Below are positions 680-20,932 of a stretch of 64,000 nucleotides of DNA, piece by piece. The stretch is taken from positions 124,001 through 188,000 of the forward strand of contig NZ_JACHIO010000008.1 of assembly GCF_014203225.1 (NCBI RefSeq), given 5' to 3'. Position numbers and translations under genes: made by a program. Below the pieces are notes generated by a model. That model ran no database searches. It was not told the origin of the DNA and saw only the letters and a program-made list of their open reading frames with translations. This DNA is from Granulicella mallensis. Lineage in GTDB: Bacteria > Acidobacteriota > Terriglobia > Terriglobales > Acidobacteriaceae. Each line of letters starts with the position of its first letter. Position 1 is the stretch's first letter.

Positions 680-755
680 GGGCCTGTAGCTCAACGGTTA
701 GAGCAGGGGACTCATAATCCCTTGGTTGGGGGTTCAAATCCCTCCGGGCCCACCA
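680..755 (+). tRNA. ileX: tRNA-Ile2 (CAU anticodon, lysidine type)
   Basis: The acceptor arm GGGCCTG pairs with CGGGCCC, a single A follows, and CCA is encoded. The anticodon CAT lies at 713-715 in an ACTCATAATC loop context, and the T arm is GGGGG-TTCAAAT-CCCTC. The anticodon arm and variable region resemble the minor isoleucine tRNA, whose C34 is converted to lysidine by TilS, more than elongator or initiator tRNA-Met. The 3' part (710-755) serves as the integration site of the adjacent island, so the present 3' half was supplied by the element and the gene stays intact. Confidence 0.9.
710..755 (+). repeat. attL core (46-bp direct repeat, left copy)
   Basis: The sequence runs from the anticodon-stem A through the encoded CCA and is identical to 20887-20932. 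Identity stops exactly after CCA: the next bases are AAATTT here and TTTCTG at the right copy. On the left it stops just before ACTCAT. Confidence 0.9.
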
Positions 756-922
756 AATTTCAAAAACCTAGCGAATACATCTAAACATCACAAAATAATA
801 TATTTACAATGCCATATCGCCTTACAAGGGTGCTAGGTCAGCTTTAGCAAAAGTCACTTGATTTTGCGCTTCGGTACAATTGCGGTACAGCGCTCGGTGA
901 GCCGGCCTGTCCAGGAGGTACC

Positions 923-2023
923 GTGGCGACTATCGTCAAGACTCCATCTGCTACGTGGAAAGCAGTCATCCGCAAGACCGGCTGGCCCACGACAGCGAAG
1001 ACCTTTCGCACCAAACGAGACGCTGAAGATTGGTCGCGACGCACTGAGGACGAGATGGTGCGTGGCGCGTACATTCAGCGGGCAGGCGCTGATCGCCTTA
1101 CAGTAGCTGATGCTCTGACGCGATACCTAGCGGAGATAACTCCAAGCAAGCGGCCAAGCTCTCAAATATCAGATCGGCAGAGATCGGCAATCCTCACGAA
1201 GCACTTGGGCAAATACTCCCTGGCCGCAGTAACTCCCGAAGTCGCCGCGAAGTTTCGAGACCTACGGCTTGCCGGCGAAGATCGGAAGGACGCCATAGGC
1301 GGGCCCGTTCCACGCTCAAACGACACTGTTCGGCTCGACCTGGCATTATTGGGACACCTCTTCACAATTGCGATAAAAGAGTGGGGTATCGGTCTACCCG
1401 CGAATCCAGTCATGAACATCCGTAGACCAACGCCCGCTCCTGGTCGCAACCGTCGCCTCACTGCTGGCGAGGAAGCTAAGCTCCTTAAGGCTGTGGCTCT
1501 CCACAGTAACCCCATGCTCCGCTGGATCGTGGGCATCGCCCTCGAGACAGGGATGCGCTCCTCCGAGATCACCGGGCTTCGTCGAGTGCAAGTGGACTTG
1601 GATCGTCGAATTGTGCGGTTGCTGGAGACCAAAAACACGACACCGCGTACTGTCCCTCTAAGCAAAGATGCCGTCGAGATTTTCCGTGAGGCGATAACGC
1701 ATCCTGTGCGCCCCATAGACACCGATCTGATCTTCTTCGGAGAACCCGGTCGAGATGGCAAGCGTCGTCCATACAACTTCAATCCTGTATGGCTGAACAT
1801 CAAGCGCGAACAGGGGCTTGCCGATGTCCGCTTCCACGATCTGCGGCATGAGGCAGTAAGCCGATTCGTCGAAGCAGGCTTCTCGGACCAAGAGGTCTCC
1901 GCAATCAGTGGTCACAAGTCGATGCAAATGTTGAAGCGTTACACACATCTGCGAGCCGAGGACTTAGTGGCTCGTATGGACGAAGCCGCGTTACGACATA
2001 GAGGTCAATTGCGTGAAGCGTAG
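923..2023 (+). CDS. int: Tyrosine integrase of the island
   Basis: This phage-type tyrosine recombinase (366 aa) should catalyse integration and excision at the tRNA-Ile2 site. It has a short N-terminal arm-binding region, a SAM-like core-binding domain (about residues 60-165) and a catalytic domain with Arg in GMRSSE (about 211), HDLRH (about 305), GHKS (about 330) and the nucleophile Tyr in RYTH (about 339), so the active site looks complete. The start is GTG, chosen because AGGAGGT lies 4 bases upstream. It sits directly beside the attL repeat and reads in the same direction as the tRNA. The next gene starts inside its last codons, which suggests co-transcription. Confidence 0.95.
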   Translation: MATIVKTPSATWKAVIRKTGWPTTAKTFRTKRDAEDWSRRTEDEMVRGAYIQRAGADRLTVADALTRYLAEITPSKRPSSQISDRQRSAILTKHLGKYSLAAVTPEVAAKFRDLRLAGEDRKDAIGGPVPRSNDTVRLDLALLGHLFTIAIKEWGIGLPANPVMNIRRPTPAPGRNRRLTAGEEAKLLKAVALHSNPMLRWIVGIALETGMRSSEITGLRRVQVDLDRRIVRLLETKNTTPRTVPLSKDAVEIFREAITHPVRPIDTDLIFFGEPGRDGKRRPYNFNPVWLNIKREQGLADVRFHDLRHEAVSRFVEAGFSDQEVSAISGHKSMQMLKRYTHLRAEDLVARMDEAALRHRGQLREA

Positions 2024-2960
2024 CCGCCAATTGATCTCTGAACATGCCTCGTGGTTCCGATTGCGAAACTATGAGAGCTTGGAGACCGCGACACCGCTTG
2101 TTTGGTTCACACAGTTTGCATTGCGCATTGACCTCCAGAGAATGCGCTCACTTTTGATCGGACCAGACGATCCAAGCGTTCAAGTGTTGCGCTCCGTGCA
2201 TGATGGTGCCGTCGCGCTTGTTCGCTCCAAAGGTGTCATCAAAGGGGTCGCTCTCGCAAAGCTATTGCAATATGGTGAGGCTCTGTCTCCTGAGGGATTT
2301 TCTACATTACGCATGGCTAATGCCAACGGTGTTTATCTCCGACCTATGAATCTCGAAGATTTTTTTCGAGTTAGTGACGCCCTGAAGGCCATTCCTCCTT
2401 CTGGGCTGACCGCAAATGACTCCGCAGGTCGCAACGGTGGAGGGCTCTACCGGTCTTCGGCAAAGCATAGCCCGTCGCTGGATCTCTCGGACTCTCTCGA
2501 CCTTCATGTTCGTCGATCATTGGTCAATCTATATGAGACTTTTGTCACCGTTGATCTCCGCCTCCCTCGCGCACTATTAATCAAACAATTCGCAGAGGTC
2601 ATCGACATGCAGCGAAAGACGCTGGGGCCATTGCTTCCGCCAGCCAGGCAAACCAAGATGCCATCCGGTGAGGCCTGGGCGAAATCACAAGTGCTCCCAT
2701 ATATCGACCTCTGCCAGTGGCGCGACGAACTGAAAGATAACGAGATTAGAAGCCGAATCAGCGATGCCGATATTGCATCGATTCTAGAAATCGACCCCAA
2801 AACGCTCTCTGAAACGACCAAGAATCATGCGGATGCTCTCACCGACCCGCTGAGTTGGGTTTTTATGCACCTTATGGAGTCCGCAAGCAGCGACCATAGA
2901 ATTCCACTTACTCCATTACGTAAGCAGGAAAGACGCCGAAGAGACACCCCGAAAAATTGA
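2013..2960 (+). CDS. Integrase-linked protein, DUF6387-like
   Basis: Predicted at 315 aa and soluble. The beginning (an ASWFRLRNY segment followed by a WFTQFALR segment) resembles DUF6387 proteins that accompany tyrosine integrases in integrative elements; this is recalled family resemblance, not a search. The function is unknown. The start is GTG at 2013, overlapping the integrase end by 11 bases, with GAGG 8 bases before it, so translation is probably coupled to the integrase. The C-terminus is rich in Arg and Lys, compatible with nucleic-acid binding. A directionality or element-maintenance role is inference from position only. Confidence 0.7.
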   Translation: MKRSRQLISEHASWFRLRNYESLETATPLVWFTQFALRIDLQRMRSLLIGPDDPSVQVLRSVHDGAVALVRSKGVIKGVALAKLLQYGEALSPEGFSTLRMANANGVYLRPMNLEDFFRVSDALKAIPPSGLTANDSAGRNGGGLYRSSAKHSPSLDLSDSLDLHVRRSLVNLYETFVTVDLRLPRALLIKQFAEVIDMQRKTLGPLLPPARQTKMPSGEAWAKSQVLPYIDLCQWRDELKDNEIRSRISDADIASILEIDPKTLSETTKNHADALTDPLSWVFMHLMESASSDHRIPLTPLRKQERRRRDTPKN

Positions 2961-19674: not shown

Positions 19675-20482
19675 CGCCGCTGCTCCCATCTTTAGAATAC
19701 CGGGTAAAACCGATGAAGCCCTCCGTGGGGCTTACTGAAAAATTGCCGACGGCAGTGTGGGGTCCATGGCCTACAAACGTACACATCCTTAGTGGTCGTA
19801 GCCGAACATCCGCGTATACGCCAGGATTTGTTTTCTTGAGTTGCTTGGCTCCGTTCATGCTCTTCGAATCTGCTGAATCTGGCATGTCGAATCTCAACCG
19901 CGTGGCATCAATAAGATCCTTGGCCCACAGTGCTTTGATGCCCTTATTCAGATCCGCAGCGTAGATGTTGCCATCAGAAAGCAAACTTCCCGTCATGGCC
20001 TCTTCCGACGGAGCTTTTGAGCGAACCATGATTTGGCGGTCAAAGTAAGCAGAGAGATCCTTCTCCAAGACGACAAAGCGCACTAAAAGGTACTTCTTCG
20101 TCAGTTCGAGGCGGATCGGCCAAAGGAAGTCCATACTGCTGTTCTGCGGTGGGTCAAGCTTCACAACCTCATAGTGACGCTTGGCGATGTAAAGCGCGTG
20201 GTCAGGTGCTGAAGCAACCCGTTCAGCTCCAGAGAAATCTTCTGGCAGCACAAGATCCCCATCGTGTTCAAATACGTAGACGTGCTGTTTACAGAACGTC
20301 ATCGTGGTATCTACAAATTGCGCAATATGGGCGAGATTTACTGGATCTGCCGACTTCGCGATCGCGGATGCAAGACCTTCCTTCAATCCACTCTTCTTAA
20401 AGAAAGCGCGAAGATTTACGGCTGGGAACAGTTCCAGCAAGCGTCGGCGCAATTCAGCCGATGATTCTTTCAGGATGGGCAC
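19640..20482 (-). CDS. Unrecognised 280-residue protein, first gene of three-gene operon
   Basis: Translation starts at GTG 20482 with no better in-frame start. The protein has a helical N-terminal domain (about 1-60), a central mixed domain (about 65-185) with alternating strands, and a C-terminal part with a FVGHGPHTAVGNFSVSPTEG stretch (about 235-255) rich in Gly and His that could be a loop or binding site. No known domain is recognised. It heads a compact operon whose genes overlap, a hallmark of defence or toxin-antitoxin modules. Confidence 0.6.
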   Translation of the reverse strand: MPILKESSAELRRRLLELFPAVNLRAFFKKSGLKEGLASAIAKSADPVNLAHIAQFVDTTMTFCKQHVYVFEHDGDLVLPEDFSGAERVASAPDHALYIAKRHYEVVKLDPPQNSSMDFLWPIRLELTKKYLLVRFVVLEKDLSAYFDRQIMVRSKAPSEEAMTGSLLSDGNIYAADLNKGIKALWAKDLIDATRLRFDMPDSADSKSMNGAKQLKKTNPGVYADVRLRPLRMCTFVGHGPHTAVGNFSVSPTEGFIGFTRYSKDGSSGDELIRQILASN

Positions 20483-20886
20483 GCCGCCATCTTAGCACCC
20501 AAGAGACACCCTCTGACCTTGCCTACGCTCGCTCGGGCGCGAAAAAGGTGCCGGACTTCCCGTAGGCAGCTCAATCGCCCTTTGCGTAAAGTACATATTT
20601 CTGAACTCTTTCGCTCAAAGCTTTAAGCGATCGCCCGTCACGTCAGACGGCCCCGCCAAGCGCTATGTCTGGATGCTCGGATCGTTGAAGATCTTCTCGT
20701 CCCGCGTCGCCGATAATGGAAGTAAAGCCGCGCCTCCACGCGTTCGCAGGTACGGTTCAGGTACAGGCGTCAGCTTTTGTCACTTACGATAAACTGGTCT
20801 AAATTACGGTGGCTCAACTACTTAGGGTTACGCTCGGATACGCCACAATTCGCTTTATTTTGTTAGACTTGCGGTATTGCGGAGCA
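20483..20886. other. Gene-free right end of the island
   Basis: No supported coding region. It should contain the promoter of the minus-strand three-gene operon and integrase arm sites for the right end. I see no strong repeat here apart from attR itself. Confidence 0.5.
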
Positions 20887-20932
20887 ACTCATAATCCCTT
20901 GGTTGGGGGTTCAAATCCCTCCGGGCCCACCA
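20887..20932 (+). repeat. attR core (46-bp direct repeat, right copy)
   Basis: Identical to 710-755, the 3' part of tRNA-Ile2 including CCA. The bases to its left do not form a D arm or acceptor 5' strand, so it is an attachment-site remnant, not a second tRNA gene. Confidence 0.9.

Follow-up and report, generated by a model that had tools for sequence, protein, structure and literature searches.

The 64,000-nucleotide stretch of the Granulicella mallensis genome analyzed here (contig NZ_JACHIO010000008.1, positions 124,001 to 188,000, henceforth the window) harbors, at its tRNA-Ile2 gene, an island of 20,177 bp which, judging from its sequence and from that of its relatives, is probably a relaxase-less integrative mobilizable element (IME) of the so-called iOriT class, i.e., one with its own origin of transfer (oriT), a ribbon-helix-helix (RHH) protein that would bind this oriT, a ParA module and exchangeable cargo. 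As it combines an RHH gene with a conserved oriT-like site, the island is better called a probable mobilizable element than a passive island. Elements of this kind have been described before; what looks new, within the literature searched, is the oriT/RHH family and the way it is tied to exchangeable defence cargo in acidobacteria.

An earlier note, prepared from the DNA letters alone, had claimed exact borders for a 20.2-kb defence island, formed by a perfect direct repeat in a lysidine-type isoleucine tRNA gene and adjoined by a tyrosine integrase; the attachment (att) sites, the integrase and the cargo all support such an integrated, defence-rich element. A repeat search confirmed the 46-nucleotide perfect repeat (710-755 and 20887-20932). 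When up to three mismatches were allowed, its first 33 bp were found in the 6.47-Mb assembly at these two positions only, compared to none for the reversed-pattern control. ARAGORN labels the gene at 680-755 a tRNA-Met owing to its CAT anticodon; tRNA-Ile2 is the right name because the eight best of 6001 E. coli records with a match are all annotated as tRNA-Ile (81.6-82.9% over 76/76 bases). These matches bear out the claimed isoleucine tRNA target, which we take to be of the lysidine type. The repeat spans the gene's 3' part, beginning in the anticodon loop and finishing with CCA, which is a usual crossover segment for such tyrosine integrases. The GC content amounts to 53.8% between the repeats and to 60.5% elsewhere in the window.

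The tRNA gene with 120 bp of upstream sequence was used as a query in 41 genomes (own genome included), and twenty stretches were retrieved, i.e., eighteen at the tRNA-Ile2 of relatives, one at a second att-like copy in genome G014 and one own upstream region. Among the eighteen relatives, only G002, which belongs to the same genus, has both chromosomal flanks, the left one at 89% over 457 bp and the right one at 94% over 2,325 bp. The starts of its two 46-bp repeats are separated by just 2,743 bp. The flanks are kept outside the borders, while the DNA between the repeats is replaced; of the element itself, the ends are retained (the upstream side of the integrase and approximately 30 bp inside attR) and the middle is exchanged. 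This 2,743-bp version between the same flanks therefore indicates that the cargo is exchangeable and that the borders are right. The earlier note had proposed a comparison with relatives lacking the island, in which base 755 should be joined directly to base 20933: conservation of the flanks outside the borders was indeed found in G002, but this genome is not empty, and neither the junction 755|20933 nor a truly empty site was present in the stretches of the 18 relatives, G002 being the nearest. In G015, a left-end-like stretch is located behind the tRNA, and no integrase was recognised in the remaining 0.9 kb of that contig. A composite of two elements within the borders was also considered and is unsupported, since a second long repeat pair is absent. 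An open reading frame (ORF) at 20889-21203, minus strand, which ends in VGPEGFEPPTKGL, runs antisense over the tRNA fragment and probably represents a spurious protein.

The adjoining tyrosine integrase was confirmed as well (Table 1). In the set of 200 genomes of the family that served for the integrase, RHH, relaxase and motif searches, this integrase was detected at E<=1e-30 in ten genomes (own genome included), two of which carry partial copies. In all ten, and also in G014 with its broken copy, the integrase lies 61-175 bp behind a tRNA gene, i.e., a CAT tRNA in the window, G002, G105, G181, G204, G061, G014 and G079, and a Leu tRNA in G127, G169 and G141. The far att copy was recognised in G204 and G002 (46/46 each), G105 (42/46) and G079 (45/46, twice), and none was seen in the compared stretches of G181, G127, G169, G141, G061 and G014. 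A clean split of Leu- and Ile2-targeting integrases was not obtained in a tree (key supports of 32-51), and none is claimed. G079 (L065, 3025-17205) displays three successive copies of the tRNA end, as if two elements had inserted in tandem behind one tRNA; these two presumed elements contain no recognisable defence genes, the integrase is broken and the genes behind it, judged by eye, are not defence-like. In G014, a lone att-like tRNA 3' end (L034, 9923-9969) is found on another contig than the intact tRNA, and may mark the distal end of an element whose parts lie on different contigs.

The ORF at 8643-9095 matches no Pfam family above cut-off, yet from its relationships it seems to encode an oriT-binding-type helper protein. 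It is related to a protein located just 5' of type IV secretion system (T4SS) genes in G127 (3e-9) and to a protein of G105 (9e-5). The G105 protein shares 45% identity with an RHH protein whose gene immediately precedes the relaxase gene of G077, and the G127 protein weakly matches the gene directly 5' of the G169 relaxase (0.009). A profile built from nine relatives, with the window protein left out, retrieved only this ORF among 549 six-frame segments (5e-18), and the search for the RHH family returned 12 matches in 11 of the 200 genomes. In the PDB, phmmer returned no significant match for this protein (one chance match). The hairpin downstream of the RHH gene (9176-9223) has a z-score of -9.9 and is not followed by a T-run.

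The oriT-like core of the window, TATAGGAACATAAAG, belongs to a motif that came from the comparison of four otherwise dissimilar stretches, in which the 11-mer GGAACATAAAG lies upstream of RHH genes. The GGAACATAAA part of the core is located 5' of 11 of the 12 RHH family matches, the twelfth of which starts at a contig end, and the chance of finding it upstream of an RHH match is about 2e-4 to 4e-4 each. The start of the core lies 121-151 nt 5' of the RHH start in nine measured loci, and about 305 nt in G077. Fifteen of 27 sites retrieved with the pattern TANNGGAACATAAAG have the TAGT form, whereas random bases at the two free positions would give about 1.7. Eight sites were set aside by hand, seven of them within ORFs of 241-730 aa and the eighth (L098), which lacks an RHH gene, close to the end of a contig; the TAGT form does not occur among these eight. 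The 19 sites that were kept comprise ten with an RHH gene downstream (two being both copies on one G140 contig) and nine without. Three loci with the core and no RHH gene (L127, L120 and L126) have in common an upstream divergent gene of ~120-185 aa, which also precedes the relaxase operon in G169 and in G111. In the 2.7-kb remnant of G002, the 11-mer lies 74 bp before attR, start to start.

The short sequence that directly follows the core differs from site to site, and in the window the 11 bp after the core recur ~86 bp further on. A spacing test, recording the longest direct or inverted recurrence, was applied to 15 sites chosen against near-duplicates, and placed the recurrence at +56-63 nt from the core in seven sites and at +81-93 nt in eight. 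Single-site p-values, obtained from mononucleotide shuffles, range from 0.001 (window, 11/11 bases) to 0.86, with five below 0.05; when combined by Fisher's method, p is 1e-4 for the 15 sites as opposed to 0.95 for the eight set-aside sites. By analogy with PcfF at the pCF10 oriT (see below), the post-core repeats are read as putative relaxosome binding sites, specific to each element and recognised by its cognate RHH protein.

The relaxase profile gave nine matches in eight of the 200 genomes, and five of these matches have the core upstream (in G077 with A for the last G). Like the RHH family search, this search made no use of the motif and so puts it to the test. The core is present at all four named relaxase loci, two of which are the G141 and G169 contigs, with a third having the same bases around the core. 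The relaxases in L131, L135 and L117 match the NCBIfam RlxS model (6e-42, 1e-55 and 2e-34, respectively), all below the 850-bit cut-off of this narrow model, while Pfam DUF3363 is above cut-off in 3/3 relaxases and just below it in G169. A Pfam scan of 20 island proteins revealed no relaxase, coupling protein, T4SS or mating-pair apparatus, so that the statement of the earlier note that the island has no transfer genes holds for these components, but not for oriT-associated functions. Similarly, no relaxase was seen among the ORFs of the G105 element, and the relaxase query had no match on a repeating contig of G140. The latter (contig 4, L118/L119; 24,526 bp) represents 1.7 turns of a ~14.47-kb unit, circular or tandem, with 10,056 bases recurring at 99.97% and two single-base gaps, and carries RepA, ParA, XerD, a type III restriction-modification system, the core and an RHH gene.

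Transfer of the island may thus be envisaged as follows. The integrase would excise a circle, the maintenance of which (replication or partition) would be aided by ParA and its partner. An RHH dimer would bind the GGAAACACCTT repeats and recruit the RlxS-type relaxase of a helper integrative conjugative element (ICE) or plasmid, such as those in G141, G169 and G111, and this relaxase would nick at or near the core. The T4SS of the helper would then move the strand across, after which the integrase would re-insert it at the tRNA-Ile2 gene of the recipient, where the cargo, considered operon by operon, may confer antiviral restriction on the host.

A number of observations weigh against the island being mobilizable in this manner. 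Neither an excised circle nor a precise empty site was observed. The relaxase profile, which matches 8 of the 200 genomes, found none in the own genome in a scan that had no positive control; two relaxase matches in G151 (26-28% identical) lack the core despite at least 1 kb of upstream sequence, and no core is seen at a relaxase fragment (L138) or a contig-edge match (L136) either. The window core has TATA and not TAGT, and the G002 copy of the 11-mer is without the leading TA. The 27 TANNGGAACATAAAG sites, distributed over 22 of the 200 genomes, compare to 26 in the reversed-pattern control; the signal lies in the TAGT form and the location. Furthermore, three of the six RHH profile members had defined the motif and one was met via the motif; only 4 of the 14 non-window sites reach p<0.05 for the repeat, and the two spacing ranges were derived from the same data, with two of the eight set-aside sites also falling inside them. 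Several of these points, i.e., the own genome without a relaxase of this family and the TATA core, together with the G002 element having shrunk to an integrase and fragments, would suit a passive, immobile island, in which the RHH gene and the oriT-like site are left over from an ICE that lost its relaxase and T4SS, with the integrase alone, or nothing, still working. Such a relic is nevertheless unlikely in view of the intact RHH ORF, the unbroken core and the post-core repeat that is exact over 11 bp, as well as the occurrence of the same core and RHH gene on the G105 element and the G140 contig, neither of which shows a relaxase.

RHH proteins often repress their own promoter, and the core and repeats could in principle constitute an operator or promoter, either of the RHH operon (autoregulation) or of the divergent gene, and no oriT at all. 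The distance between core and RHH start given above and the conserved divergent gene at several sites would agree with this, but nine of the 19 kept sites have no RHH gene downstream, and the six of these nine that entered the spacing test hold the spacing; the divergent side differs in the window, G105, G127 and G140, and oriT and rlxS are neighbours in ICEMlSymR7A according to excerpts of PMC11963761. A purely regulatory site is, on balance, very improbable. Least credible of all is a phage satellite or decayed prophage, even though prophages, too, have a tRNA target and a tyrosine integrase, and DUF6998, which matches a PHROG, was also encountered on two viral contigs: in a PHROGs scan of ten island proteins, none matched a packaging family and the integrase was the only one to match families of named function, and T4SS genes travel with relatives of this integrase.

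Compared to described systems, the relaxase-less mobilizable element proposed here resembles the iOriT class, i.e., integrative mobilizable elements that carry an oriT and borrow the relaxase and mating apparatus, in being integrated and having an oriT-like site, no relaxase and no mating-pair apparatus; it differs in its own RHH oriT-binding-type protein and its ParA module. The transfer of islands without transfer genes is often unclear since oriTs are hard to recognise, as stated, like the definition of the class, in excerpts of PMC11389934. With SGI1 and related IMEs, as portrayed in parts of PMC8409611, it shares an integrase module, replicon-like genes and variable cargo and, in the reading proposed here, an oriT, a mobilisation protein and helper dependence. 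In SGI1, however, the relaxase is the atypical MpsA and the target is trmE (same parts of PMC8409611), while the window element targets tRNA-Ile2, carries defence cargo and has its XerD-like gene (16037-16999) away from the oriT-like site, and no relaxase was found in it, MpsA itself not having been searched for. The presumed helpers are similar to ICEMlSymR7A and other RlxS-type ICEs as outlined in sections of PMC8627217 and PMC11963761, in that their relaxases match the RlxS model and a coupling protein and, by eye, a lytic-transglycosylase-like gene are nearby, whereas in the window element no relaxase or T4SS gene was found. The element also differs from an ICE in general by its lack of a relaxase, coupling protein and T4SS, while G169 and G127 do carry conjugation genes. 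PcfF, the RHH accessory factor of pCF10, binds and bends oriT and recruits the relaxase (PMC6514445); the same role is proposed by analogy for the product of 8643-9095, which differs in having no significant PDB sequence match. No description of this oriT, nor of any oriT for Acidobacteriota, was encountered in titles and abstract openings on the motif string, Acidobacteria ICE/oriT or Acidobacteria plasmids, and the oriT family of the window element appears undescribed.

The elements of the window, G105 and G204 are the three of more than 15 kb with both ends recognised, and each contains known defence genes, none of which are in common. The cargo of G105 includes Hachiman (HamA, 4e-106; HamB, 2e-186), a type III restriction enzyme (E 0) and an Snf2 protein like C3a139, while that of G204 includes TRIP13 and SAVED-PD(D/E)XK parts of CBASS and a PADLOC dGTPase. 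The window and G105 share the integrase, ParA (76% identical), the ParA partner and the RHH gene; with G204, the window has the integrase and a distantly related recombinase (27%) in common, and a ParA of 68% identity lies at another locus in G204. Judging from gene content, cargo is exchanged between family members. Conjugation genes, too, accompany the same kind of integrase: G169, whose ORFs are the same in G141, encodes a coupling protein (PF02534, 2e-78) alongside a relaxase, and G127 encodes TrbL (4e-25) besides a TrfA-like Rep. Given the non-defence neighbours in G079 and the conjugation genes in others, defence is frequent in this family of elements but not family-defining.

A broader and more tentative proposal, which is possible but at present the less probable outcome, is a conjugation network of the Acidobacteriaceae, in which the oriT core TAGTGGAACATAAAG would be common to many elements and the post-core repeat and RHH protein private to each, such adaptors letting relaxase-less islands and plasmids borrow many RlxS-type relaxases. 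If this were true, the adaptor and not the relaxase would decide which cargo moves, and antiviral genes would spread as hitch-hikers. For the window element itself, sequence alone yields a candidate oriT, in which a core is followed by repeats specific to the element and accompanied by a DNA-binding protein to match. A defence island that seemed static becomes a hitch-hiker open to testing, with its likely helpers named, and the motif may be used to seek further hitch-hikers in soil acidobacteria.

Table 1. Features of the element at tRNA-Ile2 (window positions).
Feature	Position	Strand	Evidence
tRNA-Ile2 gene, intact, CAT anticodon, 3' half from the element	680..755	+	ARAGORN, E. coli comparison
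att copy, integrase end, 46 bp, anticodon loop to CCA	710..755	+	Repeat search
Tyrosine integrase	923..2023	+	Pfam (PF00589, 6e-30); 98% identical copy at same tRNA in G002
DUF6387 gene overlapping integrase gene	2013..2960	+	Pfam
ParA ATPase	3269..4066	+	Pfam
Conserved ParA partner	4056..5312	+	Comparison with relatives
McrC	5289..6488	-	Pfam; NCBIfam equivalog above cut-off
McrB-like AAA protein with Mrr_N domain	6425..8365	-	Pfam, NCBIfam
oriT-like core TATAGGAACATAAAG	8518..8532	+	Stretch comparison, pattern search
Putative oriT repeat copy 1 GGAAACACCTT	8532..8542	+	Recurrence test
Putative oriT repeat copy 2 GGAAACACCTT, within AAGGTGgaaaCACCTT	8619..8629	+	Recurrence test
RHH relaxosome-accessory-type protein; ATG start, upstream TTG start 8628	8643..9095	+	Profile searches (5e-18, 4e-12)
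Perfect 20-bp inverted repeat, 8-nt loop	9176..9223	.	Repeat search, folding
D12-class adenine methylase; PADLOC PD-Lambda-5_B-like	10821..11861	+	Pfam, PADLOC
NotI-family endonuclease, tail-to-tail with methylase	11845..12918	-	Pfam
DUF3892 protein	13292..13594	-	Pfam
DndB/DGQHR-family protein	13764..15131	-	Pfam, NCBIfam
109-aa ORF, head of DUF6998/XerD operon, no family	15281..15610	+	ORF list, Pfam
DUF6998 protein; weak PADLOC match to type II methyl-directed restriction enzymes	15615..16040	+	Pfam, PADLOC
XerD-like recombinase	16037..16999	+	Pfam
HNH endonuclease (HNH_2)	17776..18795	-	Pfam, PADLOC
280-aa protein, no family match	19640..20482	-	Pfam, PADLOC scans
Element-specific end beside attR, common to G002	20855..20886	.	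Flank comparison
Far att copy, 46 bp	20887..20932	+	Repeat search

With regard to the remaining genes, the cargo listed in the earlier note was largely recovered, i.e., McrBC, the adenine methylase/NotI-like pair and the HNH nuclease are present, while the EVE domain was not detected by Pfam; the N-terminal region of 17776-18795 is presumably EVE-like. The NCBIfam McrB match (229 bits) is below the 637 cut-off. The DUF6387 gene is kept in G127 (34%), with a short match in G181 and only the first 12 codons in G002. The ParA partner has no significant match in Pfam, PHROG, NCBIfam or PDB and is suspected to have a plasmid-type maintenance or replication role; a single-sequence fold of this protein was of low confidence (pLDDT 46) and was not used.

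The genes for the D12 methylase and the NotI-family nuclease overlap tail-to-tail by 17 bp. Genome-wide, GCGGCCGC occurs at 277 sites compared to 378 for the reversed pattern (280 and 377, respectively, in G002), and the window contains 0 sites where about 3.6 are expected. Island-linked avoidance of this sequence was not seen genome-wide, as it is no rarer than in G002. Since N6-adenine methylases need an A in their target, and since GCGGCCGC has none and is not rare relative to G002, either the target differs or the methylase and nuclease are not a pair. Two palindrome copies close to CCGTGAACATTCACGG lie before and across the methylase start (10761-10837), perhaps representing the methylase operator.

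The DGQHR signature of the DndB-like protein reads DGLAR (by eye), and no other dnd genes were found among the scanned island proteins. Phylum-level searches for this protein and for DUF6998 covered 396 genomes, own included: relatives of the former were absent at E<=1e-10 from the 395 other genomes and from viral contigs, a single one being found on a Euhalothece plasmid, where it is annotated in pieces. The DUF6998 protein is encoded in a three-gene operon (15281-16999) together with the 109-aa protein and the XerD-like recombinase, of which a 63% identical copy is present on the repeating, oriT-bearing G140 contig. DUF6998 itself was found in the own and one other of the phylum genomes, in six plasmid records and at two viral loci, and on viral contig L075 it is located directly behind an integrase.

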